Assembly: GCA_024638215.1 (NCBI GenBank)
Contig: JAHEKS010000006.1
Span: forward strand, 1 to 36,622
Source of the DNA: Acidobacteriota bacterium
Lineage (GTDB): Bacteria > Acidobacteriota > Terriglobia > UBA7540
Reading direction: 5' to 3'
Length of the DNA stretch: 36,622 nt
Under the pieces are notes generated by a model. It searched no databases. It saw nothing but the letters and a program-made list of their open reading frames with translations, and was not told the DNA's origin. A program made the position numbers and the translations under genes. Shown here piece after piece: positions 2,975-22,247 of this stretch (position 1 is its first letter; every line of letters begins with the position of its first letter).

Positions 2975-4168
2975 TCACGGCTTGCGATACGCAGCCTGCG
3001 CCGCGAGCAGGACGTCCTTGAGCGGGACGTTTCTCTCCGTTGCCACGCGCTGGCAGTCCTCGTACTCGGGAGCTGCGTTCACCACTTTGCCGTCCAGCCA
3101 CGCCACTTTCACATTCAGTGGGCCATAGGCCGTTTCCACGGTGACGATTTCACGTTGCAGAACCTTTCGCCGCGCCTGATAGATGCGCACGCCGATGGTG
3201 GTGGTCTGCTCAAAGACCAGCCGCGCCAGCTCGTCGCACTTGTCGGGGTCCGCAACCACACTGATCAGCATTCCCGGCCGGTTCTTCTTCATCTGAACCG
3301 GCGTGCAGGTTACGTCAAGCGCCCCGGCCGCGAGCGCCCGCTCGACGAAAAATCCGTAAAGCTGCGGGCTCATGTCGTCCACATTGGCTTCGATAACCGA
3401 GACGGCTTCTTCGCTTTCGGCGCCCGGCTGCGGACGCGCTTGCTCGATTTCAGCTCTCTCGCCCACAAACAATCGCGCAATGTTGGGATGGCGCGGAAAA
3501 TCCTTCTCGCCCGCGCCGTAACCGATCCGGCTGACCTTCATCGCAGGCATGGGACCAAAGCTCGAAGCGAGTGTCGAGACAATCGCCGCGCCGGTCGGCG
3601 TGACCAATTCGCCTTCAACGCCCGAGGAATAAATCGGAATGTCCTTGAGCAGCTCGGCCGTGGCGGGGGCGGGCACGGGCAGCGTGCCGTGCGCGGCTTC
3701 GACGTGGCCGCCGCCGACGTTCAAGGGCGAGGAAATGAGTTCTGAAATTTCCAGCAACTCCAGGCCCGCGCACGCGCCCACCACGTCGAGAATCGTGTCC
3801 AGCGCCCCGACCTCGTGAAAATGGACTTTTTCAATCGGCTGGTTGTGCAGCTTAGCTTCGGCTTCACCGAGGCGCCGGAAGATCTTGAGCGCGCGCTCCT
3901 TCACCGAAACGCTCAGGGTGCTCTCGCCAATCAGCTTCTCGATGTGCGAAAGGTGGCGCGCCCGGTGCTGGCCGGGGTCGCGGATTTCGATCCGGCTGCC
4001 CGCGATCCCGCGGCGCATCGCCACCGTGCGCTTGAACTCGTAAAAGCCCACCGGAACTTTCTTGAGTTCTTCGAGCAAGCGCTTGGGCGCGAGGCCGGCA
4101 TCAATCAGCGCCGCCAAAAACATGTCGCCGCTGATACCCGAAGAGCCGTCGAGATAAGCAATTCTCAT
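2975..4168 (-). CDS. larC: LarC-type nickel insertion protein
   Basis: LarC (TIGR00299/DUF111 family) is the CTP-dependent nickel chelatase that installs Ni in the pyridinium-bisthiocarboxylate nucleotide cofactor of lactate racemase and related enzymes. The N-terminus (MRIAYLDGSSGISGDMFLAA) is the family signature. The body carries FHEVGALDTILDVVGA, TPTGAAI and EANVDDMSPQ, all conserved. At 397 residues it is a full, unsplit LarC; in lactobacilli the same protein is made from larC1/larC2 by frameshifting. The frame is open for 110 codons upstream, but those are the antisense-like shadow of the sirtuin gene. The ATG at 4168 overlaps the sirtuin TGA in an ATGA, so the two are translationally coupled. 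No larA, larB or larE is in the window. Confidence 0.93.
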   Translation of the reverse strand: MRIAYLDGSSGISGDMFLAALIDAGLAPKRLLEELKKVPVGFYEFKRTVAMRRGIAGSRIEIRDPGQHRARHLSHIEKLIGESTLSVSVKERALKIFRRLGEAEAKLHNQPIEKVHFHEVGALDTILDVVGACAGLELLEISELISSPLNVGGGHVEAAHGTLPVPAPATAELLKDIPIYSSGVEGELVTPTGAAIVSTLASSFGPMPAMKVSRIGYGAGEKDFPRHPNIARLFVGERAEIEQARPQPGAESEEAVSVIEANVDDMSPQLYGFFVERALAAGALDVTCTPVQMKKNRPGMLISVVADPDKCDELARLVFEQTTTIGVRIYQARRKVLQREIVTVETAYGPLNVKVAWLDGKVVNAAPEYEDCQRVATERNVPLKDVLLAAQAAYRKP

Positions 4169-4929
4169 AAAAGCCTCGGCAGAATTTCCCCGGAGGCTCC
4201 GCGCAACACCCAGGTGGCGTGCGAATCGAGCGGCGTTGCTTCCGGATTGGTCACAACGATGCCGGCGCCTGCGTGCCGCGCCACTTCCACCAGCCCTGCC
4301 GCGGGATAAACCACGCCGGAAGTACCCACAACCATGAAAATGCCTGAGTGGGCGGCGGCGGCGAAAGCCTGCTCCCATTCCGCGGCGGGAAGCGGCTCGC
4401 CAAACCAAACCACTCCCGGCCGAATGAGTGAACCGCAGCGGCAACGCGGCGGCAGTTCGCCGAGCGGTACCTGCTCGTTGCGTTCTTCGGCGCCGCAATT
4501 CACGCAGCGCACGAGCCAGATATCGCCGTGCAATTTCAGAATGCGTTGGCTGCCGGCGCGGTCGTGCAGGCCGTCCACATTCTGAGTGATGAGCGCGAAC
4601 GCCTCCGACTTCAGTCCGTCCCGCGTTTTGCGCCGCTCCAATTCGGCCAGCGCGTGGTGCCCGGCGTTCGGCTTGGTCTTGTGAATGCGACCGCGGCGCC
4701 AGTCATACCATTCCCACACCAGGCGCGGATCGCGCTCGAACGCTTCCGGGGTCGCGAGTTCCTCCGGCCGAAAATTCCGCCACAAGCCGCCCTGTCCGCG
4801 AAAGGTCGGCACGCCGCTTTCGGCGGAAATCCCTGCGCCCGTCAAAACGGCCACCGACTCGGCATCCTCGAGCGCCTGGCGAACCGCGGCGGCTGCGTCG
4901 GTCACTTCGCTGCGCCCCGCTTTACGCAT
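4165..4929 (-). CDS. cobB: NAD-dependent protein deacylase, sirtuin class III (CobB/SIRT5 type)
   Basis: Sirtuins remove acyl groups from lysine side chains using NAD+. The 254-residue protein has the NAD-binding TGAGIS (about 30-35), TQNVD (115-119), the catalytic His in LHGD (H134) and a zinc module of four Cys (C142, C145, C163, C165). Y75 and R78 form the YxxR pair that in SIRT5 and E. coli CobB binds the carboxylate of succinyl or malonyl lysine, so desuccinylase activity is expected from family knowledge. It is the first gene of a two-gene unit; its TGA overlaps the larC ATG. The link between a sirtuin and a nickel-cofactor enzyme is unusual, and may reflect only shared transcription. 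Confidence 0.93.
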   Translation of the reverse strand: MRKAGRSEVTDAAAAVRQALEDAESVAVLTGAGISAESGVPTFRGQGGLWRNFRPEELATPEAFERDPRLVWEWYDWRRGRIHKTKPNAGHHALAELERRKTRDGLKSEAFALITQNVDGLHDRAGSQRILKLHGDIWLVRCVNCGAEERNEQVPLGELPPRCRCGSLIRPGVVWFGEPLPAAEWEQAFAAAAHSGIFMVVGTSGVVYPAAGLVEVARHAGAGIVVTNPEATPLDSHATWVLRGASGEILPRLL

Positions 4930-5285: not shown

Positions 5286-6683
5286 GTGAAAATAACAGAC
5301 GAAATTCTCTATTCCTCAGCCGTCGAGATGGCGCGTGCGGTGCGCGAGAAGAGAATCTGCGCCGTCGAGCTTGTTCGCGCGCACCTCGAACGCATCCAGG
5401 CGGTCAATCCCAAAATCAACGCAGTGGTTCAGATCGCTGCCGACCGCGCGCTGGAAGAAGCTCGCAAAGCCGACGATGCACTTGCGCGCGGCGAAGTCAA
5501 AGGCCCGCTGCACGGCGTGCCCTTCACTCTGAAAGACGCCATCGAAACCGAGGGAATCATCACGACAGGTGGAACGGCCGGGCGGCGCGGCTTCGTGCCT
5601 GCGGAAGATGCGACCGTCGTCAAGCGCCTGCGCGATGCGGGAGCCATTCTGCTGGGCAAGACCAACTGCCCCGAGTTCGGCTGGGCTTGGGAAAGTGACA
5701 ATCTCATTTACGGGCGCACGAACAATCCGTATGACCTGTCGCTTTCGCCGGGCGGGTCGAGCGGCGGCGAGTCCGCCATCATCGCCAGCGGCGGGTCGCC
5801 GTTCGGTCTCGGCTCAGACGCAGGCGGCAGCGTGCGCTTCCCCGCTCACTGCACGGGCATCGCCAGCATCAAGCCGACTTCGGGCCGCGTGCCGCGCACC
5901 GGCCATTTCCCTGGCCCGGGCGGCACCCTCGATGCGATTTGGCAGATCGGGCCGCTGGCGCGCTATGTCGAGGATCTCAACTTGATTCTGCGCATCGTCC
6001 CCGGCCCCGACGGGCGCGACGCGGCGATTGCGCCCGTGCCGCTCGGCGATCCCGAGGAAGTGAGTCTGAAAAAACTTCGCGTGGCGTTTTTCACTCACAA
6101 CGGAATCGTTGCGCCGACGGAAGAAACGGCTGAGGTAATTCGCAAGGCCGCCAGCAAACTCTCCGACCAGGTCGCACGGGTGGACGAAGTGCGCCCGCCC
6201 GCCATCGAGCAGACTTACGCGATCTACCTCAAGCTGTTTTCAGCCGACGGCGGCGAAGGGCTCGATGGCTTGATCAAATCGGCGGGCACAACCGAAGTCC
6301 ATCCGCTGATGAAGCGGGTGCTCGAAATCCAGCGTGCGAATGCGGCAACGATGCCCGAGTTCGGCGCGCTGATAGCGCGCTGGGACGCGTTTAAGACCGC
6401 GATGTTGTCTTTCATGGAGAACTATGACGCGATTCTCTCCCCCGTGTGCAGTTTCGCAGGGATGGTTCACGGCTCGACGTACCAGCGGCTGCCGTCCTTC
6501 AGCTACACGATGACCTACAATCTCACCGGCTGGCCTGCCGCAGTGGTCCGAGGCGGCACCGCTTCGAACGGCTTGCCGATCGGCGTGCAGATCGCTGCTC
6601 GCCCTTGGCGTGAAGACGTGGCGCTGGCAATTGCCCAACGCCTTGAAACGGCGATGGGCGGCGCTGTGCGGCCGCCCATCTAA
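5286..6683 (+). CDS. Amidase-signature hydrolase
   Basis: Amidase-signature enzymes hydrolyse C-N amide bonds with a Ser-cisSer-Lys triad. All three parts are visible. Counted from the GTG at 5286, the Lys is in HGVPFTLKDAIE (K83), the cis-Ser is in the SPGGSSGG loop (about 158-159) and the nucleophile is in SDAGGSVRFPA (S182). SIKPTSGRVP follows, as in the family. Length (465 residues) is normal. GatA shares this fold, but no gatB or gatC is nearby and the C-terminal half looks like a stand-alone amidase, so the substrate is unknown. An in-frame GTG at 5247 is an alternative start. Neither start has a clear Shine-Dalgarno sequence. Confidence 0.9.
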   Translation: MKITDEILYSSAVEMARAVREKRICAVELVRAHLERIQAVNPKINAVVQIAADRALEEARKADDALARGEVKGPLHGVPFTLKDAIETEGIITTGGTAGRRGFVPAEDATVVKRLRDAGAILLGKTNCPEFGWAWESDNLIYGRTNNPYDLSLSPGGSSGGESAIIASGGSPFGLGSDAGGSVRFPAHCTGIASIKPTSGRVPRTGHFPGPGGTLDAIWQIGPLARYVEDLNLILRIVPGPDGRDAAIAPVPLGDPEEVSLKKLRVAFFTHNGIVAPTEETAEVIRKAASKLSDQVARVDEVRPPAIEQTYAIYLKLFSADGGEGLDGLIKSAGTTEVHPLMKRVLEIQRANAATMPEFGALIARWDAFKTAMLSFMENYDAILSPVCSFAGMVHGSTYQRLPSFSYTMTYNLTGWPAAVVRGGTASNGLPIGVQIAARPWREDVALAIAQRLETAMGGAVRPPI

Positions 6684-6785
6684 TCACGAACAACTTGCCT
6701 GTTGTTATTCGACCCCGGACGATCGCTCAGCGGGTGACCGCGCGTATCTCTACTGACTCGGTTTCAGACAGCAGGCGACGCGCCG

Positions 6786-8162
6786 TCAGGACTTCAGCGT
6801 GTCCGAGGCCGCATCCCAGAACAACTTCTTGCCGGAGCGATACGAGAGGTTGACCATGTGGCCCGCGGCGGCGGCATGGTGGCCGACCACGGCGTCTTCC
6901 GAGCACGGGTTGCGCGAGCGCGCGCACTGGAAAAATTCCGTCATGTGCAGAACCACGGAATCCAGTCCCTGCTCGCGGTAGGTGCTGCCCATGTCGAGCG
7001 TCTTGGTGGGCCGCGCCGAAAGGTCGGACTCCTCACGGTGGTCGTCCATGTTCATGAACTCTTCCTGGAGTTTCTTCGGCCAGCTATCAATCGAGTAGCT
7101 GTAACCCTCCCGGTGAATTTCCGAGGCCACCGTCATACCGTCACCCACCAACTCCAGCGTCCCCTCGGTGCCCAGGAACTGCATTCCCTGCCCGCCCGAG
7201 GAGGCGTTATTGAACGTCGAGCCCATGTTCACCTGGAACCCTTCGGGATATTCGAACACCGCGTCAAGGGTGTCGGGCACTTCGCGGCCGTCTTTGCGGT
7301 AGAGGATTCCGCCGCCCGCGTAAACGCTCGAAGGCATCGTGGCGTCCAGGATGAAGTGAATGGAAGTGATGAGGTGCACGAAGAGGTCGGTCGAAATTCC
7401 TCCCGAATAGTCCCAGTACTTGCGGTACCGGAACACGCGCTCGGCATCGAAGTCATGCTTGGGCGCTCTTCCCAGCCATTCCTCCCAGTTGAAGTTGACG
7501 CCGTTCTTGAGGTCTGGCGGAATGGGATAGTTCCACGCCCCGGTCGAGCTGTTGCGGTTGTAGGAGGCGATCACCTTCGTCACCTTGCCGAGTTTTCCCG
7601 ACTGCACGATCTCGCGCGCCTTCTGTTGCAGCGCCGAGGATCGGCCCTGGCTGCCCACCTGCAAGACGCGATTGTAACGCTTGACCGCTTCGATGATCGG
7701 CGGGCCTTCTTCCACGGTGTGGGTCATGGGTTTTTCGATGTACACGTCCTTGCCCGCCGCCAGCGCGTCCAGCACGATGGGCAGGTGCCAGTGATCGGGC
7801 GTGGCCACGATCACCGCGTCCACGTCCTTGCGGTCCAAAACCTTCTTGTACTGCGCGAAATTCGTCTCGATTTGGCCGCCCGTGCGTTCTTTGGCGCGGT
7901 CAAGATGTCCTTGGTAGCAGTCGCACGCCAAAACCAGATTGGCTAGGCCCGTCTTCCTGGCAGCCTCCAAAAGGATATTCCCGCGGATGCCAAAACCGAT
8001 GAAGGCCACGTTCACGCGGTCCGCGGGGCTGGCGGGCCGGGGTGAACCTGTCGCCGCTTCCAGCGGCACCCACTCGCCATTCAAGAAATAGCCCAGGCCG
8101 GCCGCACCGGCCGCACTTCGCCGCAGAAATTCGCGTCGCGATAAGTCGCGAAATAAAGGCAT
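6786..8162 (-). CDS. Tat-exported Gfo/Idh/MocA-family oxidoreductase
   Basis: This is an NAD(P)-dependent sugar-oxidoreductase-like protein. The N-terminus carries a twin-arginine leader (SRREFLRRSAAGAAGLGYF), so export as a folded protein with bound cofactor is expected. After about 45 residues the Rossmann fold begins (VNVAFIGFGIRGN). The family motif EKPMTHT lies near residue 144 and VATPDHWH just before it. The C-terminal alpha/beta substrate domain is complete, at 458 residues. Similar Tat-borne Gfo/Idh proteins are abundant in Acidobacteriota and Planctomycetota, where they act on periplasmic sugars. It converges on the amidase gene and starts back-to-back with the LOG gene. Substrate unknown. 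Confidence 0.92.
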   Translation of the reverse strand: MPLFRDLSRREFLRRSAAGAAGLGYFLNGEWVPLEAATGSPRPASPADRVNVAFIGFGIRGNILLEAARKTGLANLVLACDCYQGHLDRAKERTGGQIETNFAQYKKVLDRKDVDAVIVATPDHWHLPIVLDALAAGKDVYIEKPMTHTVEEGPPIIEAVKRYNRVLQVGSQGRSSALQQKAREIVQSGKLGKVTKVIASYNRNSSTGAWNYPIPPDLKNGVNFNWEEWLGRAPKHDFDAERVFRYRKYWDYSGGISTDLFVHLITSIHFILDATMPSSVYAGGGILYRKDGREVPDTLDAVFEYPEGFQVNMGSTFNNASSGGQGMQFLGTEGTLELVGDGMTVASEIHREGYSYSIDSWPKKLQEEFMNMDDHREESDLSARPTKTLDMGSTYREQGLDSVVLHMTEFFQCARSRNPCSEDAVVGHHAAAAGHMVNLSYRSGKKLFWDAASDTLKS

Positions 8163-12469: not shown

Positions 12470-12753
12470 TCAGATTTCCTGTTTGTATCGGAGGCTCATT
12501 GCCGGCACCCGCTCACGTTGGAGAGCATATCGTTTCAGGATGCGATACTAACGCCGGTTATGCCGATTTTCAAATGGGTTTCGAGGCCCGGGCGGCCCCC
12601 GCCCGAAATGTAAGGGTGGGTTCGAAAATACGCCCATACGACAAGCCCCGCCACAATCTGACAGGGGAAACCTAGGCGCACCAAATGTCCGAGTAACTTT
12701 GCAGGGCGCATTCGCGTCGTGACAAGTCGAAGGCCACGGTGCGGAGAGCGGGG

Positions 12754-13201
12754 ATTGGTGAGGATGGGGCGGCGTGGGCGTGGGTGGTAAGTCTACGAAA
12801 ACAGGAAGTGGTGTTTTGAAGCTCGCGCAGAATTGGTGAGGGAAAGAGGCGGGAGTTGAAAGTCTCTGTTGAAAGCCCGCGCTGAAAGTAAAGGACTTAT
12901 TTAGAGACGGAGAGGTAAAAAGTTGAAAGTCTGTTGAAAGTCTCGGCCTAGAAAGAGGGGGTCACCGGTAAGTATATAAAACATTGAGCCTTAAAGACTT
13001 TCGACGCGGCAATTTCAACGCATACATGCCAAAACCGTGCATCTTGCGTATAACAAGACTGTTACTAGATTGAGTCATGAGGAAGTGACTAGAAAGACGT
13101 GTAATACCGTTAGTCAATAAGAATGCTCAAAAGGAACCATCAAGACTGATAATCAAGCTAAACACTCAAGAATTGGTGAGAAGGTGAGCCACAACGGTGA
13201 G
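12754..13201 (+). repeat. Dispersed repeats AATTGGTGAG / GGTGAG
   Basis: ATTGGTGAG occurs at 12754-12762. The 12-bp AGAATTGGTGAG occurs exactly at 12829-12840 and again at 13169-13180. Shorter GGTGAG copies follow just before the MuB-type gene's stop. All are in the same orientation. They may be binding sites for the element's transposase or ATPase. Confidence 0.6.
12855..12943 (+). repeat. Iterated GTTGAAAGTCT repeats
   Basis: GTTGAAAGTCT occurs at 12855-12865, 12922-12932 and 12933-12943. Shorter copies GTTGAAAG at 12868 and GCTGAAAG at 12881 keep a 13-bp spacing to the first. Spacings of 11-13 bp, about one helical turn, suggest a protein-binding array. Confidence 0.65.
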
Positions 13202-13210
13202 CATAGAAGG

Positions 13211-13963
13211 TCACTCTTCAGGCAGGCCCACGAGGTACTTCTCCGAGGCGCGGACGATCTGGGCGGTCATTACGCTGCCATCTTTCGCGGCCCGTTTCGC
13301 CGCTATCGGCACGATGACGTTCAGCCAACCGAAAGAGCCTTGCGACATCCGGTAGAGCTCCTGGAGGCCGCCATCGTCAAAAGTGGCCTTCCACTTCGTC
13401 CCCACAACCAGGTCCGTCTCTTTGAGGCTCAGCCGGGGAAGCTCTGCCTTATGAAACGTGCGCCGCCGCAGGCGCTCCAGGTCATCGCGGGAGAGCATAT
13501 CGCGCAAGTGAGGCGTTCCGAAAAGGGCCAGCGGGAAGCCGCGCTCCCCGTCCGTGTCGCGCAGATCGGAGACCCGGTCCCAGATGGAGCGCAGGAAGTC
13601 GAATGTCCGCACCGTGAGCAAATCCGCCTCATCAATAAGGACGAACACCGGCTCTTTGGCGAGCTCTTCAGCCGCGCGTTGTTTGATCGAATACATGTTG
13701 GCGGCCTGCCCTGCGGACGGCGCTATATTCATCGCCTGTACCAAGGCCGTCAAGATCGGCCTCGGCGAAGTCAGCACATCCGCCTCAATCCAGACGTGGC
13801 GGAAGCCTGCGCCCCGCTTTACAATCCAGCGCTTGATTGACTGAGTTTTCCCGAGCCCTGGCCACGCCACCACCATGCCGATAATCTGCTCTTCGTTGAT
13901 GCGGTCGAGCGACTGCATGGCGATCTGGGCGGCGCGGGTGTTGAAAAAGGTTCTCTCGCTCAT
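13211..13963 (-). CDS. MuB-type transposition target-capture AAA+ ATPase
   Basis: In Mu-like elements the B protein coats target DNA and delivers it to the transposase in an ATP-dependent way. This 250-residue protein has a Walker A AWPGLGKT (33-40) and a Walker B VFVLIDEAD (105-113). RRRTFHKAEL near residue 187 fits an arginine-finger region. Related ExeA/TniB ATPases share these motifs. The assignment to the MuB role rests on its place directly downstream of a MuA-type transposase. Its ATG overlaps the TGA of the preceding small gene in an ATGA, indicating coupled translation. It is the last gene before the repeat-rich left end. Confidence 0.88.
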   Translation of the reverse strand: MSERTFFNTRAAQIAMQSLDRINEEQIIGMVVAWPGLGKTQSIKRWIVKRGAGFRHVWIEADVLTSPRPILTALVQAMNIAPSAGQAANMYSIKQRAAEELAKEPVFVLIDEADLLTVRTFDFLRSIWDRVSDLRDTDGERGFPLALFGTPHLRDMLSRDDLERLRRRTFHKAELPRLSLKETDLVVGTKWKATFDDGGLQELYRMSQGSFGWLNVIVPIAAKRAAKDGSVMTAQIVRASEKYLVGLPEE

Positions 13964-14202
13964 AGGTTCGACTCCACTTTCAGCCTCAGCATTCCGCCGC
14001 GCGGACGCTGGTATGCGCGCTGGTAACGTAGGTTGCGAAAGATGCGCAGTTGCTTTATGCGGCGCTTTCCGAGCCGCTCCAGTCGCTCCGCTTCAGCGAG
14101 CTGCTCATCCGTCAGTGCGGCGAGGGCCTTGTGTATCTTGGCCCAAGTTCCGCTCGTTTGCAGGGCCTCGCGGACAGCCGGGTCAGGGGCCTCAATTCTC
14201 AG
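13960..14202 (-). CDS. Small basic protein between transposase and ATPase, probable CTG start
   Basis: An 80-codon frame fills the gap between the transposase stop and the ATPase start, ending in an ATGA overlap with the ATPase. The N-terminus (LRIEAPDPAVREAL) is acidic. The middle (KIHKALAALTDEQLAEAERL) is helical. The C-terminus is strongly basic (about RRIKQLRIFRNLRYQR), so nucleic-acid or partner binding is plausible. There is no ATG, GTG or TTG at the head. The CTG at 14202 is the best start, 9 bp after the transposase TGA. The frame is also in phase with the transposase, so readthrough of that TGA would fuse the two. I do not recognise the family. Confidence 0.6.
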   Translation of the reverse strand: MRIEAPDPAVREALQTSGTWAKIHKALAALTDEQLAEAERLERLGKRRIKQLRIFRNLRYQRAYQRPRGGMLRLKVESNL

Positions 14203-14211
14203 CGCTACGTC

Positions 14212-16308
14212 TCACGATTCCTCCGCCGTGCATTCCTCGATCTCATACAGCGAGGGCGCACTCTTTTCCTCAGCCTCGGGAGGGCCAGCGATAAATTCAT
14301 CGGGACTGATGCGCTCGCGTGCCGATGGCGGAGTCACCAGCGGCCGCAGATGTGCGGCCATCCACGCATTAGAAGAAATCGCAGGCAGATCGGCGCACGC
14401 TGGGGGCTCCGTCGCGGCGCGGAGAAGATTTCTTGAGAATCTTTTTTCCGCCATCGCTTTCGACAAAAGTCCGGGGTCACCCGTGCCCACGCGCGGGACG
14501 GCGGGCACAACTATCTCGTCGTCGCCCGGCCGCGCTGGCAGCACATAAATTCTCGAGCGGTCTATGCGCGAGCGCTCGACCGTGCGCCGCTGGCCTTGAA
14601 TAAGCACAAGCTCATGCGAGTAGTAGCGGGTCTTCCGGTAATTCCCTTCAGGGATATCAATGTGGCCGCCCGGTTGAACCAGGACGTTTTCATAGACCCG
14701 CGCCGTGATGCGGTCGAGTTCTTGCTGCGTCACGCGGCGGAAACCTTCAGCGGGAGTCTCGCGGCGGAAAACAATCGAAGGCGTGAGGCCGTTCATGTCC
14801 GTGCCCTCGGATTGGTGCTCGCGCCACTCAGCGAAAAATTGCTGATACCGCTGGAGCAGTTCTTCGCGCGAAAGCAGCGGCGTCGTTTTGGCGCGGCCGT
14901 GGCAGTAATCCTCATGCGTCCTGAGTTGCTCCGCCGCGCTGGAGAGTTCATCTCTCTCTTCCGTCGAGGCCCCGCACCAGCCGGGTAGCGTGCGTGAAAA
15001 GCGCGCCAACTCCCGATGAAACCGTTCTAAACGCGAACCCTGCGGATTGTGCTCGCGCGGCATGTTGCGCCCGATGTTGAGCTTGTCGAGGATGCCGTTC
15101 TGCCCTTCCCGCGCCCTCTCGCGGTCGAACTGGCGGAACTGGCCGCCGAAGGCTTTGCCGCGAAAACGGCCACGGTCAGAGTTAATCAGCCCCGGAATGC
15201 CGCAGTCCAAGCACACGCGGACCAACAGGTCAATTTCATCTTCCTGGCCGGGGAATTCGACCAGCAAAGCGTCGAGCGGATAGATCGAACGCTCGTCGAA
15301 CATGGTCAGCAGATAGAAACGGCCGGCGCGGACCTGGCCCTTCTTCGGCCCGGAACGCCAGAGCAAATTGTCGGGGTCGAATGAGAAAACATCTGTAATC
15401 CATTCGTCGTTATCTACTCTATCAAGGGCGCGGCAGTCCGTGTAGCTGCGGTGAATCTGCATTTCAGCGGCCTTGAGTGCAGAGCGGCCCTCAGCCGCGA
15501 TCTTGGCGGGCGCGCCAAGGGAAGCGTAGTAGCGATACACGGCGGAGCGCTTGGGCATGACATAGGTTTTCCCCGCGCGCCACGCTTCCTGTTTCCCGGC
15601 CAGGCATTCACACACTCCCGCGTAGGTCTGCTCGCGGCTCCGGCCTTGCGGCCGCAATTCGAGTATTTTCCCCTTTGTCGAATCGTCCAGGCCGCGCGGC
15701 CCGCTCGGCCTGGGGCCTGGCCGGTCCTTCGCCAGCGCTTCAAGCCCCAGAAGGCCGCCGCCCGCCTTCAGATAGTCGGCCCGCAGCCGCTGGACCGACT
15801 TGCGGCTGAGCCCGAGCTGCTGTGCGGCGTCGGCTTCGCACTCGCCCTTGTTGGTGAATCTTTTTCGCCAGTCGCCATTGAGCAATGGCAGGATGGCCTT
15901 GTGGCGCGTCTGCGCGGTGAGCTTCTGCTCATAGGTGAGGCGCAGGCGCTCGAATAGCGGCGAGAGGAAAAGTTCGCCTTGATGTTCTCCAAGCTGGAGG
16001 CAGCCGGCGGCCTCGCCGCTAGCGGGTAGCGCCGCCGGCGCCTGATTAAAGAATCGCGAGCCGAGCATTCTTTCGCGCGCCGCGCCTTGCAACCACCTCT
16101 CTTTTGCATCCCAGGGAAGTGAACGGCCATCCACCACGACCACGAATCGAGGGCCGAAACGCTGGGCGCTCGGAGCCCGAACACCCTTGATTTCCTTGCT
16201 GTCAATCCTGTTGCGGACTTCCTGCGCGGTACATTCCAGGAACTCCGCCGCTTTGGAAATGCTCAGCAGGCAAGGTAGCGTTTCGTTTTCGAGTGAGACT
16301 TCAGCCAT
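14212..16308 (-). CDS. Mu-type DDE transposase (MuA-like)
   Basis: This recombinase nicks the element ends and joins them to target DNA. The 698-residue protein starts with an HTH domain of the Mu DNA-binding type (LSISKAAEFLECTAQEVRNR). A second HTH (AAQQLGLSRKSVQRLRADYL, about 161-180) precedes the catalytic core. The core is RNase H-like with D306 (WITDVFSFD), D378 (NSDRG) and E428 (QGSRLERFH); the spacing of 72 and 50 is close to that of MuA. A beta-barrel-like domain follows, then a charged tail of about 130 residues. AGGAGA lies 11 bp before the ATG at 16308. Intact and probably active. Confidence 0.92.
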   Translation of the reverse strand: MAEVSLENETLPCLLSISKAAEFLECTAQEVRNRIDSKEIKGVRAPSAQRFGPRFVVVVDGRSLPWDAKERWLQGAARERMLGSRFFNQAPAALPASGEAAGCLQLGEHQGELFLSPLFERLRLTYEQKLTAQTRHKAILPLLNGDWRKRFTNKGECEADAAQQLGLSRKSVQRLRADYLKAGGGLLGLEALAKDRPGPRPSGPRGLDDSTKGKILELRPQGRSREQTYAGVCECLAGKQEAWRAGKTYVMPKRSAVYRYYASLGAPAKIAAEGRSALKAAEMQIHRSYTDCRALDRVDNDEWITDVFSFDPDNLLWRSGPKKGQVRAGRFYLLTMFDERSIYPLDALLVEFPGQEDEIDLLVRVCLDCGIPGLINSDRGRFRGKAFGGQFRQFDRERAREGQNGILDKLNIGRNMPREHNPQGSRLERFHRELARFSRTLPGWCGASTEERDELSSAAEQLRTHEDYCHGRAKTTPLLSREELLQRYQQFFAEWREHQSEGTDMNGLTPSIVFRRETPAEGFRRVTQQELDRITARVYENVLVQPGGHIDIPEGNYRKTRYYSHELVLIQGQRRTVERSRIDRSRIYVLPARPGDDEIVVPAVPRVGTGDPGLLSKAMAEKRFSRNLLRAATEPPACADLPAISSNAWMAAHLRPLVTPPSARERISPDEFIAGPPEAEEKSAPSLYEIEECTAEES

Positions 16309-16500
16309 CGCCCTTTTTCTCCTGAAAGTTGCACCCGTAGCCGGGCCGTATGCGTCAGTACGACGCCGACTCTGGCGAGTTCTTCCGTAGTGCAGCGGTT
16401 TGGAGCCACCAAGTTCATCCTCAGAGGGCGCGCTCCCTAACGTTCCTTACCCTTTTGGCGCGGACACGGTTCGCTTTGATGGCGCGCTGCTCCGCGCGAT

Positions 16501-16540
16501 CCAGGTCAGCGTTTCGTCTTCGAGTGCGGGTTCAGGCATT
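16501..16540 (-). repeat. Partial duplicate of the transposase 5' end
   Basis: This segment matches 16270-16309, the start of the transposase gene, at roughly three quarters of positions, including a shared core GCGTTTCG. Its own ATG (16539) opens a 30-codon frame starting MPEPALEDETL, against MAEVSLENETL in the transposase. A second short frame overlaps it (DLDRAEQRAIKANRVRAKRV). The 258 bp between the transposase and the next gene otherwise hold nothing clear. It may be a decayed gene copy. Confidence 0.5.
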
Positions 16541-16566
16541 GTCGGCCTCAAGGGCGCCGCGAAGGT

Positions 16567-16904
16567 TTAGAACGGTATATCCTCGTCTGCGAGCCCTTCC
16601 TCCCGGTGACTTTTGACGATTTTCCGCTTGCCATCCGGGCTGGTCTCGACTGTGAAAGTGCCGGGTTCGATTCGAAGTTTGAGCGCGATCTGCGTCTCAA
16701 GCTGCGATACCAAGGCTTCGAGGTCTCCGCGCCGCGCTTGCAGCTCTTCCTTCGCGCGTCCTACAGTCGCCACGGCCTCGACAATTTCGCAGAGGTCCCG
16801 CTGCTTTATCTCTGTCGGGAAGTCTCCGAGTTCATCAAGGTTCCAGAGGTCCTCAAGGTCTTTGGGTGTCGGAGTCGGATTTTTTTATCCTTCTGCTTTT
16901 TCAC
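16567..16904 (-). pseudogene. Small acidic coiled-coil protein, apparent frameshift at an A7 run
   Basis: The conserved-looking frame runs from just after the preceding gene's TAA to 16567: KNPTPTPKDLEDLW, then EIVEAVATVGRAKEELQ, a Glu/Leu-rich helix, and a C-terminus ending EGLADEDIPF. It has no early start codon; the first is a GTG at 16773, deep inside. A GTG at 16904, overlapping the upstream gene, begins MKKQKDKK but enters the wrong frame. One extra A in the A7 run (T at 16880-16886 on the plus strand) would join the two into a protein of about 112 residues. Sequencing error, mutation, or slippage on the A run are all possible. Family unknown. Confidence 0.5.
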
Positions 16905-17301
16905 GGTCGGTCTCCTTGCGGCGGCGCTGCGATCCTTTCAGCGCGTGGGCCGTCCTTACCGTACGCGCGAGCAGCAACTCCATGCGGCGCGCGGATTCTC
17001 CGAGTTCAAGCGCTTCGCGCAGGTCCCTGCTGAGCAACTGGCGTTGAAGGGCGTCATCTTGTAGAATCTCGCAGAGCGCCGGAACGGCATCGGCGGGAAG
17101 GTGGTAGCCGCCCTTCGTCGCAGCCGTCCAGGTGTCCAGCATCGGGACAGTCACCTTGCGCCCAAGCGACCGCGTCAATTTTTCTGCGATGACGGCGCGG
17201 CTGAGCGAACTGCGGTGGATCGCTTCCCGGAGCAGCGGGCGGAGTTCGCCGTCTACATCGCGCGTGTCGTAAGCGGCTCGGGTTGTCGGTTCATCAGACA
17301 T
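16885..17301 (-). CDS. Hypothetical early regulator of the Mu-like element
   Basis: The protein is 138 residues from the ATG at 17301, or 145 from a GTG at 17322. It is helical and charged, with a segment (SSLSRAVIAEKLTRSLGRKVT) that looks like a helix-turn-helix, followed by MLDTWTAATKGGYHLPADAVPALCEIL, then a basic tail. Short proteins of this type, with HTH and a 'PADAVPALCEIL'-like segment, are common in early regions of Mu-like phages. It is the first leftward gene and starts inside the operator-like repeat, so it is probably under control of the divergent XRE regulator. Exact family not recognised. Confidence 0.65.
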   Translation of the reverse strand: MSDEPTTRAAYDTRDVDGELRPLLREAIHRSSLSRAVIAEKLTRSLGRKVTVPMLDTWTAATKGGYHLPADAVPALCEILQDDALQRQLLSRDLREALELGESARRMELLLARTVRTAHALKGSQRRRKETDREKAEG

Positions 17302-17336
17302 TCCAATTAGAATGTCTTGCACATTAGGATTGGGAT
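17300..17336. promoter_or_regulatory. Operator-like inverted repeat between divergent element genes
   Basis: ATTCCAATTAGAATGT (17300-17315) and ACATTAGGATTGGGAT (17321-17336) are imperfect inverted repeats, pairing at about 12 of 16 positions around a 5-bp centre. The element covers the start codon of the leftward gene and lies 17 bp before the XRE start. That is where a phage-type repressor would bind to control both arms. Confidence 0.6.
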
Positions 17337-17352
17337 GTCAAGGGGAGATGCT

Positions 17353-18267
17353 GTGTCGAAGAAAAAAACAGAACTTGGCAAAAGGATTGAGAAGGTCCGT
17401 GGCAAGATGCTTCAGAAGGATTTTGCCAGCAAGGTCGGACTAACTCAGGCCGGGGTCTCCGCGCTAGAGAAAGGCAGCAGGGGGCGCACTGCGTCAGCAG
17501 GAGTTTACCTTCGAATCGCCCGACTTGCGAAAGAGGCTGGCGACCGGGCCTTCTTCATAGAGCGCGCAGGCTTTAAGCCGCGTGAAATTGTTTCACTCGC
17601 AAACAGCCTCCTCTCCGAGCAGCTCATCCGGCCTGGGTCCCATGAGATGGTCGCGATCCCACGCGTGAGAAAGGTTGGCGACAAATTTGAAGAGATCGGG
17701 CCGCGTGTGCCGATGCTTTCAGAAATGATTCCCAACCCCGCCGCAACCTACTGCTTTGCGGTCGGAGCGGGCAGCGAGACCAGGCATTGGGCTGTGGTGG
17801 ACGTCACAGGGGCAGACTCAGACGATGTGCGACAGTTTCTCGGGATTCCGGTTCTTATGGAGTTCAAAGAGGGCTACAGACTGGTAAGGGACCCGAAGCG
17901 TAAGCCTAAAGGTGTTCGTCTTCCAATGCTGGAGCTTGGAAGTCTCTTCTTGGAGACGGGGGACGTAGTACCGGGCTATGGAGCGTTGTGGCTGCTCAGG
18001 TTTCTGCCCGAGCATCCATTGTCTGGCATGACCAGAGATTCGTGGCCTGTCGGCCGTTGGGTTGAAGAGGACGCTGCGCTGTTTATGGCAGACCTCTCAC
18101 GGAGATGTTCCAACCCGGAAATGGTGGAGTACTACCGGCAGTTGCGAGTCTCGAAGAGGATAGCCCTCTCCCCGCAGAATCAGGTCATCGGCTCTGTAAT
18201 CGGTCGCTGGACCCCGCCGCAGGAGCACTTGAAGACGGGGTTCCCCTGGGACAAGGGTTCGCACTAA
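17353..18267 (+). CDS. XRE-family transcriptional regulator (candidate element repressor)
   Basis: The first 65 residues form a Cro/C1-type HTH: GKRIEKVRGKMLQKDFASKV, then GLTQAGVSALEKGSRGRTAS. The remaining 230 or so residues are not recognised. They do not show the Ser/Lys autocleavage motif of LexA/CI proteins clearly, though a sensor or oligomerisation domain is likely. I chose the GTG at 17353 because AGGGGAG lies 5 bp upstream; in-frame TTG and ATG codons at 17317 and 17335 lack this. It is the first rightward gene, divergent from the transposition genes across an operator-like repeat, which suggests a role like the Mu c repressor. Confidence 0.8.
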   Translation: MSKKKTELGKRIEKVRGKMLQKDFASKVGLTQAGVSALEKGSRGRTASAGVYLRIARLAKEAGDRAFFIERAGFKPREIVSLANSLLSEQLIRPGSHEMVAIPRVRKVGDKFEEIGPRVPMLSEMIPNPAATYCFAVGAGSETRHWAVVDVTGADSDDVRQFLGIPVLMEFKEGYRLVRDPKRKPKGVRLPMLELGSLFLETGDVVPGYGALWLLRFLPEHPLSGMTRDSWPVGRWVEEDAALFMADLSRRCSNPEMVEYYRQLRVSKRIALSPQNQVIGSVIGRWTPPQEHLKTGFPWDKGSH

Positions 18268-18273
18268 AGACCG

Positions 18274-18546
18274 ATGAAACCACCACCACCTTTTTCACAG
18301 TTCGACGATAGCGCAGACCGCCTGCTGGCCACTAGCGAAGCATCGCGCCTCTTAGGCATTCATGCAAGCACGCTCAAATCTTGGAGGGTGCGCGGACGCC
18401 GCGCCGGACCGCCATTCGTGAAATTGCAAAGGCTGGTTCGATATTGGCGGAGCGACCTGCTACGCTGGGGCAGTCGGGGGAGAGTGGTGCCGTCCAACTT
18501 CCGGGTGGCCGGCGATAAAAACGAGGAGGAGGCTGATGCCGTCTAA
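18274..18546 (+). CDS. AlpA/excisionase-like helix-turn-helix protein
   Basis: The 90-residue protein contains LLATSEASRLLGIHASTLKS and then WRVRGRRAGPPFVKLQRLVRY. This is the MerR/AlpA-type winged HTH pattern in which a wing follows the recognition helix. Such proteins regulate or assist recombination in mobile elements. It begins 7 bp after the XRE stop and overlaps the next gene by 11 bp, so it belongs to the same operon. The N-terminus is Pro-rich. The C-terminus is acidic. Confidence 0.8.
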   Translation: MKPPPPFSQFDDSADRLLATSEASRLLGIHASTLKSWRVRGRRAGPPFVKLQRLVRYWRSDLLRWGSRGRVVPSNFRVAGDKNEEEADAV

Positions 18547-18898
18547 CGAAATATATAAAGGCTCAATGGAGCTTGCGCTCGCTGCCCACGAACGCGCGGA
18601 GCGCAAAAGGATTCCCTATGCCGAGGCGCTGATCGAGACATGTCGTGAACGCCCTGAACTCGCGGCGGCTTCGCGTCGCGGCGTCCTCGGACGGGGCAGT
18701 CGCAGGGATTTCTGGCGCGATGGGAAGTGGGAGCCCGCCGAGGCATTCCGCGACGCCAACAAAGCGCTGGCAGACATGGCGGCGCAGCGCGCTGAAGAGA
18801 AAAATATTCGCTACGCTGTCGCGCTCTCAGAAGTGGCGCGCGACTTTCCAGAAGTGGCCCGTAAGGCTCGCGAAGCTGTCCTTAGCCGCAAAATCTAA
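18536..18898 (+). CDS. Small protein with a duplicated ~33-residue motif
   Basis: The 120-residue protein contains two copies of one motif: RAERKRIPYAEALIETCRER followed by PELAAASRRGVL, and RAEEKNIRYAVALSEVARDF followed by PEVARKAREAVL. They are separated by a Gly/Trp-containing linker (RDFWRDGKWEPAEAF). Each copy looks like a helix, a turn at the Ile-x-Tyr, then a helix ending in PE(L/V)A. Similar motifs occur in phage structural and scaffold proteins and in their proteases, which is family-level recollection, not a confirmed match. A strong GAGGAGG precedes the ATG at 18536. It overlaps the HTH gene. Confidence 0.7.
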   Translation: MPSNEIYKGSMELALAAHERAERKRIPYAEALIETCRERPELAAASRRGVLGRGSRRDFWRDGKWEPAEAFRDANKALADMAAQRAEEKNIRYAVALSEVARDFPEVARKAREAVLSRKI

Positions 18899-18937
18899 AG
18901 TTTCACCCGAAGCACAGCGAATGAGGGGAAACGTAAA

Positions 18938-19741
18938 GTGAACATCTTCAGATCGAAGCCCATGCCGAGCACCTGGAGTACGCAGAGCCAGCGGCGCACG
19001 CTCGAACTCGGCCGCCTGCGCAAAGAGTTTGAAACGTGCGAGCTCCTGTTAGCCTCCCTAAGGAAGCGGTGCGACGAAGTGGAAGGCATCTTCGCCGGAG
19101 CGATCTCGCACGCGGCCCAGGGTATCCAGAACCCCTTTCCCTTCCTTCCTGGGGCTCCCGCCGCCGTTCATGCAGAGCGCCTGCGCGGGGAGTTTTTTGA
19201 GAAGCATCGCAAAGAGTTAGCTGAAAAGATCGCACGGCTGGAAGAACAGACCGTCGCCGAAGCTGAAGGCCGCCGGGAGGGCCAGAATAGCTTGGCCCGG
19301 CTCGCGCAAACCCGCCTTGAGAAGGATGGCGAAGTCGAGCGCGCCTTCGAGCAAGTCCGGCGCGTGCTCCAGGAGCGCGCGGAGCTCACGCGGCAGATGC
19401 TCGTATTCGCCGAGGCGATAGATTTCTCGGCTGACGCCTCGCGGCTTGACAGCGTACGGTTTGAGGAATTTCTCGAACGGCTCCCCGGCGAGATTGTTCC
19501 CCAAAGTCGCGCATGGATGGCCTGGTTTCTGGGGGCGGATTCGGTGGCCGAGCGGTACCGCGTGGTACGGCGCCCCATTACGCTCCCGGAAACCCTGACA
19601 AGCGCCCACGTTTACTCGGCGCGTGACATCGTTCACATGACGGCCCAGCAGGCGGGGGAGATTGATTCCGCTCCGCGCATGGGGAGCGACCGCCCAGCAA
19701 TCGAAAAGGTCCAGGAAGAGAAGGCGGTCGCGGCGAAATGA
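18938..19741 (+). CDS. Hypothetical coiled-coil protein of the Mu-like element
   Basis: I do not recognise this 267-residue protein. After a basic N-terminus, residues 20-60 and 90-170 are Glu/Arg/Leu-rich with the heptad character of coiled coils (for example LAEKIARLEEQTVAEAEGRR). A Trp-containing segment (SRAWMAWFLGADSVAERY) and a C-terminal tail follow. The start is the GTG at 18938 with AGGGGAAA about 8 bp upstream; the ATG at 18962 is an alternative. Place and strand put it in the rightward operon before the tape-measure-like gene. Confidence 0.7.
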   Translation: MNIFRSKPMPSTWSTQSQRRTLELGRLRKEFETCELLLASLRKRCDEVEGIFAGAISHAAQGIQNPFPFLPGAPAAVHAERLRGEFFEKHRKELAEKIARLEEQTVAEAEGRREGQNSLARLAQTRLEKDGEVERAFEQVRRVLQERAELTRQMLVFAEAIDFSADASRLDSVRFEEFLERLPGEIVPQSRAWMAWFLGADSVAERYRVVRRPITLPETLTSAHVYSARDIVHMTAQQAGEIDSAPRMGSDRPAIEKVQEEKAVAAK

Positions 19742-20036
19742 GTCGAGACTTAAAGCTCGCGCGCACAAGAGATGTCGGGCATGGTATGCGCGCCGCTACG
19801 CCCGCGCCGGGTTTGCTCCTTCCCTGGCGCGGGCGCGAGTTTCCGATTTTGCGTGAGTGCCATGCTCCCGCCGTATCGCGGTCAACCCGCCAGTGTGCAC
19901 GAACCTTGCCGCGTCACCCCTTGAGCTCGCCGCTTCAGCGCGGGGGGAATTTTGCGGGCTGCGCCTGAAGCGGTGGGGCACGGTGAGCCCTTTGACCGGG
20001 ACGCAGCCCGCAGACGGATGGGAAAGGAGAACACAA
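19742..20036. other. Short gap without a clear gene
   Basis: A 76-codon frame opens at 19738 across the preceding stop (ATGA). Its Cys/Pro/Arg-rich product looks like chance translation. No other gene, hairpin or repeat is evident before the strong ribosome-binding site at 20020-20028. Confidence 0.5.
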
Positions 20037-20219
20037 ATGAGAAATACCGATACCACAGGCAGCACAGGCCCAGCAGCGCCCCCATCGACGCCTGCTGAGG
20101 AGAGACCCAAGGACGGCTTCCCCTGGCCCCGAGACCCCGCCGATACAAAGCGGCGCATCGGTGAAGCTCTCGATGAGGAGGGTCGGTTTGGCCCCGGCTC
20201 CATCCAGATTGACCCTTAA
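20037..20219 (+). CDS. Small hypothetical protein, Pro/Thr-rich N-terminus
   Basis: The 60-residue protein has a disordered Thr/Gly/Pro-rich N-terminus followed by DGFPWPRDPADTKRRIGEAL and an acidic tail. GGAAAGGAG lies 8 bp before the ATG at 20037, a strong initiation signal. It is in the rightward operon between the coiled-coil gene and the tape-measure-like gene. Its position just before a tape-measure-like gene recalls tail-assembly chaperone genes, but it is far shorter and shows no frameshift signal. Family not recognised. Confidence 0.65.
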   Translation: MRNTDTTGSTGPAAPPSTPAEERPKDGFPWPRDPADTKRRIGEALDEEGRFGPGSIQIDP

Positions 20220-20288
20220 GAGAAAGAACGCCGTGACGCTGTGGAAATGGCGCGAGCGCCTGGCGGAAGAGGCTAAAAGGAATTCGGA

Positions 20289-22124
20289 ATGACCGTTGGA
20301 GAAACGCTCGGCCTGATTTTTGAGATTGCCGCTGACCCGTCGAAGGCGATGGCGGCGCTCGAAGCCGTGAAAGCAAAGGCGCAGGAAACCGCCGCAGCGG
20401 CGGCGCAGGGAAACCAGGCGGTTGCGGCGAGCGCTGAAGCTGCAAATACCACCGAGCAGGCGATGGGGCGCACCATTGCGCAGTCGCTCCAGATGCAGGG
20501 CGCGACGGCGGAGCAGGCGGCCCAGGTTTATAAACAGTTGGGGATCTCCGGGACGCGGGCCGGAGCGGAGATTCAGGCGGCGTTTGGCAGTGCAACTCCC
20601 GCCATCGAGGCGGCGGGAGCATCGTCGCAAAGCTTCAGGCAGGAACTGCGGGCCGACCTTGGAGACCGCCAGGCCCTGCGGCGTGCTATGTACGCTGTGT
20701 TCACGCCGGTGATGTTCGCTTACATCATTCCCGAAATCACGCGCATGGGCCAGGGGATCGCCGAAGTGGCAAAGGAGGTTGGCGGGCTCGACACCGGTTT
20801 CCAGCAACTGATGACCGATGCCGTAGCCGACAACGACAAACTGCTGGGTTACAAGCGCCAATTGAACGTAGCTCAGCAAATGGAAATAAACCTGATCAAG
20901 GATGCGAACACGCAACGGCTGCGGACGATTCAGATTGAACTTGAGAACGCCAAAGCCGCCCAAGCCACAGCGCACGCTACCGCCTTGAACCTTCAAGGTC
21001 AGATCGATCTTTTCCGGCTGCAAGCCGAGCAGGTAGAGGCCATCGGCGGGGGTGTGGCGGCCATTGGGGTTGCAATCGCGAAGCGCATCGAGGGCATTGA
21101 CAAGCTTCAGAAGGCGCTCGATGAGCAACAGAAGTCAGAGATAGCCGCAGGCAAGGATGTAGCCGCACTGGAGGGCGAGCTTGCCGTCCCGACCACGAAG
21201 CAGGCCGCTGCGGCGGAGGTCGGGCGCACCGCCGCCGAGGACCAGCGTGTCATGATCCGCAACTGGATCGCCTTCTGGCGCGACCATTGGCGCATCATGG
21301 CGGAAAATCTGCGCCAGGAGCAGGAACTGCAAAGAAATGCCGACCGCCTAAAGATCGAGGAAGACAGGGCAACCTGGGACCTCTATATCGACAACATCAA
21401 GCGCGCCCGCAAGGAGCAGGATGCGATTTACGCGGAGATGGAAGCGCGCGGACGGATGGCCACGCGCATCTGGGTGCAAGAGCACAAGCAAGCGGCGGAC
21501 GCCACTGACAAGCTCACCAAGGCATACGGGCTCCTGGAGGTGATCGGAGGGCGCACTTACGCTGAGTTGACCCGCATGGCGCTCGAATACCGCGGCCAGG
21601 CGGTGAGCGCGCACAAGCTGGTGGCGGCGGCAATTGCCGCGGAAAGCCTTGAGATGCTGATTGCCGCGGCGGTGGGTGAACAGTCATTCAAGATGATGAT
21701 TCGCCAGCTGGCGGAGTACGTCGAAAAGAAAGCTGTCATCCACGCCGCCATGGACATTGCGCTGATGCTGGAGGCCATCGCCCACTACGACTTCGCGGCG
21801 GCGGGGCACTACGCGGCTGCGGCGGCAGCATGGCTAGCGCTCGGCGGCGCGGCGGCGGCTACAGCGAGCGCTGTCGGCTACGGCAGCTCGATGGGTGCGC
21901 AGCCTGCCGCCGCAGCCGCCTGGGCTCCTTCCGCCACGCCGGGAAGCGCGGCGGGGGCGGGTGGGCCGCAGCAAACGACCGTGATTCAGGTGGACGGCAG
22001 CATCAAGCCCGACGCCCTTTACGCCGGCCGGGCGATCATCAACTTGGTGCAGGCGATCAACAAAGCGCAGAGCAGCGGAACGGTCCGGCTGATCATCACC
22101 GCGCCACCAGTAGTGAGGAGTTGA
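20289..22124 (+). CDS. Tail tape-measure-like protein
   Basis: The 611-residue protein is Ala-rich and helical. A long coiled-coil region (about 180-410) is followed by a hydrophobic Ala-rich segment (about 500-535) and a C-terminal beta-strand TTVIQVDGS. This order (helical rod, then IAHYDFAAAGHYAAAAAAWL, then Gly/Ala linker and short strand) is typical of the C-terminal end of phage tape-measure proteins, which set tail length. At 611 residues it is short for that family. A 19-codon frame (20233-20292) overlaps its ATG and may aid initiation. No capsid, portal, terminase or baseplate gene accompanies it, so a role in a non-viral or satellite system is possible. Confidence 0.65.
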   Translation: MTVGETLGLIFEIAADPSKAMAALEAVKAKAQETAAAAAQGNQAVAASAEAANTTEQAMGRTIAQSLQMQGATAEQAAQVYKQLGISGTRAGAEIQAAFGSATPAIEAAGASSQSFRQELRADLGDRQALRRAMYAVFTPVMFAYIIPEITRMGQGIAEVAKEVGGLDTGFQQLMTDAVADNDKLLGYKRQLNVAQQMEINLIKDANTQRLRTIQIELENAKAAQATAHATALNLQGQIDLFRLQAEQVEAIGGGVAAIGVAIAKRIEGIDKLQKALDEQQKSEIAAGKDVAALEGELAVPTTKQAAAAEVGRTAAEDQRVMIRNWIAFWRDHWRIMAENLRQEQELQRNADRLKIEEDRATWDLYIDNIKRARKEQDAIYAEMEARGRMATRIWVQEHKQAADATDKLTKAYGLLEVIGGRTYAELTRMALEYRGQAVSAHKLVAAAIAAESLEMLIAAAVGEQSFKMMIRQLAEYVEKKAVIHAAMDIALMLEAIAHYDFAAAGHYAAAAAAWLALGGAAAATASAVGYGSSMGAQPAAAAAWAPSATPGSAAGAGGPQQTTVIQVDGSIKPDALYAGRAIINLVQAINKAQSSGTVRLIITAPPVVRS

Positions 22125-22247
22125 AGGGACCATCTAACCACAAAAAGCTCTCTGTCGTAGCCCGCTTTTCTTCCTTCCTTGGCGTCCAGCCCTCTTGGTG
22201 TTGGAAGTCTCTCCTCACGATCTCTGCGCGGACACACACGGCTTGTT

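Follow-up and report, generated by a model that had tools for sequence, protein, structure and literature searches.

A compact Mu-type transposable element with a tape measure gene in a soil Acidobacterium, and its relatives in Terriglobia as candidate satellites of Mu-like phages

A jumping element of 9.5 kb lies in the genome of a soil Acidobacterium (Acidobacteriota bacterium, GTDB lineage Terriglobia, UBA7540; assembly GCA_024638215.1), within a stretch of 36,622 nucleotides of contig JAHEKS010000006.1 that we refer to as the window. On balance we favour the reading that it belongs to a family of Mu-type transposable elements, compact in size and found in Terriglobia, which live as satellites of Mu-like phages. 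The genes that it has retained, comprising its own transposition and control genes and a few assembly proteins, would be those expected of a Mu-like phage satellite. An earlier note, made from the letters of the window alone, had described here a compact Mu-like element with an intact DDE transposase, a MuB ATPase and a rightward operon that ends in a 611-residue tape measure protein (TMP). This element proved to be real, and its features are collected in Table 1.

The element has the properties of a Mu-type transposon. When both end regions are compared, no TG/CA pair other than TG at position 12740 and CA at position 22236 is flanked by an exact 5-bp repeat; this repeat, CACGG at both ends, is the target duplication that the earlier note had predicted. 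In a shuffle control for the ends, 5 of 300 shuffles yielded a pair of equal end similarity. Transposase-site arrays are present at both ends, as they are in sister elements; the left end bears the motif GTTGAAAGTC in five copies and the right end in a single copy, while the most frequent 10-mer of shuffled sequence reached two to three. The element encodes both a MuA DDE transposase and a MuB ATPase, and the DDE residues D306, D378 and E428 of MuA are kept in all ten MuA homologues compared. The rightward operon (17317-22124) consists of genes for a repressor, an HTH_17 protein, a small protein termed p120, a coiled-coil protein termed p267 and the 611-residue last product. On its right the element is flanked by a major facilitator superfamily transporter gene, and its left neighbour, which is without a Pfam match, adjoins fumarase. 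An assembly artefact was rejected, as the window contig contains no N and spans both ends with the target repeat. No empty site was found for the element: a search with the right flank in the family matched the transporter gene only, with no match into intergenic DNA.

Pfam and PHROG scans gave no matches to portal, terminase, tube or lysis families inside the element, in agreement with the earlier note, which had listed these functions as absent. The element is therefore not a complete Mu-like prophage with portal, terminase, capsid, tail tube and lysis genes of its own, in contrast to the Mu-like phage G037:C47, which is complete and has Portal_Mu, terminase and Mu-I protease.

Identification of the last gene, which stops 112 bp ahead of the right end, as a TMP gene rests on relatives, since the window protein has no direct family match. 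A second element in the same genome (locus L022) encodes a homologue at 5830-7620 that is 40% identical to the window TMP and that matches the 710-residue TMP of G037:C47 (phmmer 240 bits). This homologue sits after p164, a gene which in complete Mu-like modules, too, lies ahead of the TMP position; p164 has no PHROG match, and its position and size mark it as a putative tail chaperone gene. In addition, the equivalent terminal or near-terminal gene in three sister elements matches PHROG tape-measure families (phrog_8462, E 1e-10; phrog_167, E 4e-7; phrog_24, E 3e-7).

The TMP had been taken for the only structural-type gene of the element. This was too strong, as the window element also encodes a scaffold tail and some of its sisters carry a capsid gene. 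We count p120 as a virion-type gene because the C-terminus of Mu-type protease/scaffold proteins matched it, and the scaffold-tail motif is present in it twice. In all eight elements tested, the gene preceding that for p267 resembles the last ~55 residues of these proteins, although in L022 the match sits in a helix-turn-helix (HTH) fusion rather than in the preceding gene itself. The type of scaffold tail is that of the modules of the element's own host lineage, again in eight of eight. Thus the tails of the five elements from genus g2 resemble g2-type modules and their near kin, that of the G029 element resembles the kind found in G029, G033, G035 and G012, and for both elements of the window genome the match is limited to the kind in their own genome, in G036 and, for p120, in the C47 phage. 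The gene that encodes p267 is specific to the elements. No family or solved structure matches the protein; a long helical hairpin is predicted with low confidence (mean pLDDT 65), and a PDB fold search with this model returned nothing at E<=0.001.

The same layout recurs in other Terriglobia genomes, from three bacterial families and beside different host genes. It consists of MuB and MuA on one side and, on the other, a repressor, an HTH protein, a small gene, a coiled coil, in some members a major capsid protein (MCP) and a tail chaperone, and finally the TMP. It was seen in the window, L002+L022, L025, L028, L079, L080, L081, L083, L089, L082 (family f6) and L141 (a third family). Those hosts that are named are metagenome assemblies of Terriglobia/Acidobacteriota, and several of the sister elements listed are partial because contigs end inside them. 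Comparing the gene order of related genomes at different sites had been proposed in the earlier note, and the recurrence that it revealed lends support to the note's suggestion of a satellite. It can be seen from the second element of the window genome (C48 + C387, with an overlap of 121 nt) that the layout may be alike when the transposases are distant: its MuA is only 28% identical to that of the window, and it ends in a TMP gene adjoining that of ribosomal protein L13. The middle of this element is less certain, because it is split over two contigs and contains a 10-N gap. L025 adjoins purM and L082 adjoins xseB. In the window, L022, L025, L028, L081, L089 and L082, no further gene separates the TMP from host genes or end-site arrays, and transposase-site-like repeat arrays lie directly 3' of it in L025, L081, L028, L022 and L089. 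The sisters end alike, and a simple deletion confined to the window copy was rejected for this reason. Their endings also make improbable the finding that the earlier note had named as refuting, a full Mu-like prophage at this locus in close relatives.

Compact elements span about 9.5-11 kb and vary at their right ends. In L141 the TMP is followed by a small gene of HTH type and by a weak match to a tail-tube family (Phage_tube_2, E 5e-5, at 3786-4799), so that some members keep one more tail gene, and in L026, an MCP-only variant, a capsid-type gene comes last. Mobility is indicated by the element in G120, whose right end occurs in two contexts (the second copy being at a contig end); the two copies are the same for 215 nt and diverge directly after CA, and similarity of the host gene xseB to its relatives begins 21 bases beyond the divergence point. 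The left end of this element could not be placed, nor could either end of an element in G105. In G007 alone, one assembled genome, five or more distinct compact elements, some perhaps only in part, are present (L028, L079, L062, L081 and L089). The earlier note had also considered a domesticated tail or rod device. The tail ruler is indeed the main gene retained, but the window element has no tube, sheath or baseplate genes, and its target duplication and recurrence at many sites are those of a mobile element, which leaves this explanation hardly credible.

The earlier note had read the largely intact genes of the element as a sign of selection, and the sister elements bear this out. The MCPs of compact elements gave dN/dS values of 0.05-0.15; the two TMP pairs of least divergence gave 0.16 and 0.29, and p267 gave 0.20-0.44. 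More diverged pairs, including the pair with the window's own TMP, have synonymous sites near saturation and are uninformative. These ratios indicate that the capsid, TMP and coiled-coil genes of the sister elements evolve under purifying selection. Of the compact MCPs, four group together in a clade (100/99) that is separate from, and lies next to, the one holding the nearest MCPs of full modules, and the fifth, that of L026, falls outside both.

These data bear on the possibility that the elements are reduced or decaying Mu-like phages, in which the genes from terminase to protease and most tail genes have been deleted and the remainder persists through a working transposition module. The remnant genes (scaffold C-terminus, MCP, tail chaperone and TMP) are colinear with full modules, a full Mu-like phage exists in G037:C47, and one gene of the window element is disrupted. 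However, several diverged elements from three families share an identical end point, TMP reading frames are intact at 40% identity, in sister elements the MCP and the TMP pair of least divergence have dN/dS of 0.05-0.16, and p267 is no remnant of any full module mapped. We therefore consider decay unlikely as an account of the family. It is a separate matter that, since the kept genes follow the order of complete modules, the elements probably originated by internal deletion or reduction of a full Mu-like phage; conservation in three families together with purifying selection suggests that the reduced form has a life of its own.

Such a satellite would need a helper, and candidates are present in the same host. 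In the window genome, terminase large subunit, portal and protease lie on C254 and the tail part or rest of the module on C346. A Mu-type portal was detected in 28 of 39 genomes of family f1 (the window's own counted), including all six f1 carriers of compact elements. The Mu-like structural modules L049, L053, L056, L059, L050, L052/L085 and L057 + L142 (this pair in the window's own genome, C346 and C254) have an unusually short TMP, of about 250-314 residues, compared with about 520-1050 residues for the TMPs of the elements; particles built with one or the other should thus differ in tail length.

The helper could be a resident module rather than an ordinary phage. Portal-bearing genomes of the family mostly have one copy, a module with identical host neighbours (a RodZ-like gene) was observed in two genomes of one genus, and the small gene of the elements tracks the module type of the host. 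The resident modules are a possible domesticated or gene transfer agent (GTA)-like phage of the f1 family. That the helper is such a vertically inherited GTA-like Mu module is a sub-case of the satellite reading, its probability being contained in that of the latter and not additional to it, and we think it rather improbable. A bolder formulation, to which we likewise give only a small chance, would be a new satellite class that uses Mu-type transposition and reprograms both the head (through a competing scaffold tail and its own capsid) and the tail (through its own TMP) of a resident, vertically inherited Mu-like module, and would thus be a parasite of a GTA-like system.

How a satellite of this kind might work can be proposed from the genes. 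Activity of a helper, either a Mu-like prophage or an infecting phage, would lift the repressor, and MuA and MuB would then replicate the element by transposition. The p120-like scaffold tail, probably with p267 and, in some members, their own MCP, would enter helper head assembly. The TMP of the element, in some members with its own tail chaperone, would displace that of the helper to give chimeric tails, and portal, protease, terminase, tube, baseplate and lysis functions would come from the helper. The element is mobile and is without a complete virion gene set, and the signs of engagement with helper assembly are matters of sequence homology, namely that of p120 to the scaffold C-terminus and the presence of TMP, tail chaperone and MCP genes.

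The same gene content might instead serve the host. As a host-protecting transposon, the element would remain unpackaged, and its copies of scaffold tail, capsid and TMP would act as dominant-negative poisons of the assembly of related Mu-like phages. Every virion gene retained encodes an assembly protein that, in excess or when mismatched, could stop heads or tails from forming, and interference with tail assembly is a known defence (Tab, Tai, Rta). Yet a full-length TMP and a capsid protein under strong constraint exceed what poisoning would seem to need, and we regard host protection as a doubtful explanation.

Several observations weigh against a satellite lifestyle. In the element neither genes for a terminase small subunit, a replication protein or lysis nor a pac/cos site could be recognised. 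The portal is common in f1 with or without a compact element, which makes co-occurrence weak evidence, and G120 (f6) carries an element while no portal of Mu type was detected there. Descent from the host's module is another way in which the small gene might have come to match its type. Viral contigs, when queried with TMP, MuA and p267, yielded no relative; no compact element was seen among these contigs, one search of which gave structural modules only. With the MuA of G120 as query, the one match in the viral contigs was distant and lay in an element of another kind, and cultured-phage records contained none for p267, TMP or MuA.

Satellites have so far been known mainly as integrase-based islands, and none on a Mu transposition module was found in the literature searched (open-licence papers only). 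One close likeness is to the PLE satellites of Vibrio cholerae, which encode TMP and tail assembly chaperone, depend on the TMP to transduce efficiently and form chimeric tails (PMC12987554); the same study reports tmp genes in further putative satellites, as well as in some cf-PICIs (PMC12987554, Ext. Data Fig. 10). As in PLEs, most virion parts are absent. The window element is nevertheless no PLE: PLEs use site-specific integrases and parasitise ICP1, whereas the family described here has MuA/MuB, a scaffold-tail gene and sometimes a capsid gene, and its hosts are Terriglobia of the Acidobacteriota. For the head, CpmB of SaPI1 and the helper scaffold have a common capsid-binding C-terminus, and CpmB competes for capsid protein (PMC5644958). 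p120 is likewise a free-standing protein with the C-terminal part of a helper-type scaffold, and by analogy p120-like proteins may bind the capsid protein of the helper. SaPIs differ from the window element in carrying integrase, replication and terminase genes. Some members of the family encode their own MCP as cf-PICIs do (PMC10690885), but cf-PICIs encode a whole head and packaging set, while the compact elements lack portal, protease and terminase. MuA, MuB, TG...CA ends, the 5-bp target duplication and end-site arrays are common to the element and to phage Mu, Mu-like prophages and mini-Mu. A full Mu-like phage has heads, tails and lysis, and laboratory mini-Mu carries no selected virion-assembly gene set. 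If our reading is right, two tricks stand side by side in one small element, a competing scaffold as in SaPI and an own tape measure as in PLE, and their presence in a phylum with little phage biology would argue for recurrent solutions.

Table 1. Positions of the element and its features in the window.
Feature	Coordinates	Strand	Basis
Whole Mu-type element, 9,497 bp	12740..22236		TG...CA ends, flanking exact 5-bp repeat, similar inverted ends
Target duplication CACGG, left copy	12735..12739		
Target duplication CACGG, right copy	22237..22241		
Left-end array of transposase-site-like repeats (GTTGAAAGTCT type)	12784..13014		Copy number above shuffles
MuB-type transposition ATPase, 250 aa	13211..13963	-	phrog_296 E 8e-30, AAA_22 E 9e-16
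MuA-type DDE transposase, 698 aa, intact	14212..16308	-	phrog_310 E 5e-31
Disrupted gene, relative of L022:443-973, also in second element	16567..16925	-	DNA comparison with second element
Transcriptional regulator, 145 aa	16885..17322	-	phrog_2345 E 2e-14
Xre-type repressor, 316 aa	17317..18267	+	HTH_3 E 9e-4, under Pfam cut-off; homologues in sister elements
HTH_17/excisionase-type DNA-binding protein, 90 aa	18274..18546	+	Family matches; homologues in sister elements
p120, free-standing copy of Mu-type protease/scaffold C-terminal tail	18536..18898	+	C47 protease C-terminus E 2e-10; own-genome module E 3e-7
p267, element-specific coiled-coil protein, 267 aa	18938..19741	+	In sister elements, in no complete module mapped
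Short open reading frame just 5' of TMP (LWKWRERLAEEA), alike in both elements of the window genome	20232..20291	+	Coding status uncertain
Tape measure protein, 611 aa, final gene	20289..22124	+	40% identity to L022 TMP; relatives' synteny and PHROG matches
Right-end transposase-site-like motif TGTTGGAAGTCTC	22199..22211	+	

The one gene that the earlier note had excepted from its list of intact genes is the disrupted relative of L022:443-973. Between window positions 16537-16925 and L022 413-802, 390 nt of DNA are 96% identical, the lengths differing by one base, while the transposases of the two elements share 28%, a sign of recent exchange between elements within one host. The region of the short reading frame is also alike in both elements, the DNA being 80% identical in a stretch starting at 20239. 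About 400 bases past the 10-N gap, L022 encodes at 3834-4460 a protein of 208 residues whose match to MuA (phrog_310, E 2e-8) is partial and leaves out the catalytic portion; this could be a transposition regulator or a remnant. Among the viral contigs, a 14-kb one (L138) carries the MuA/MuB of another transposable phage, to which the relation is distant only.

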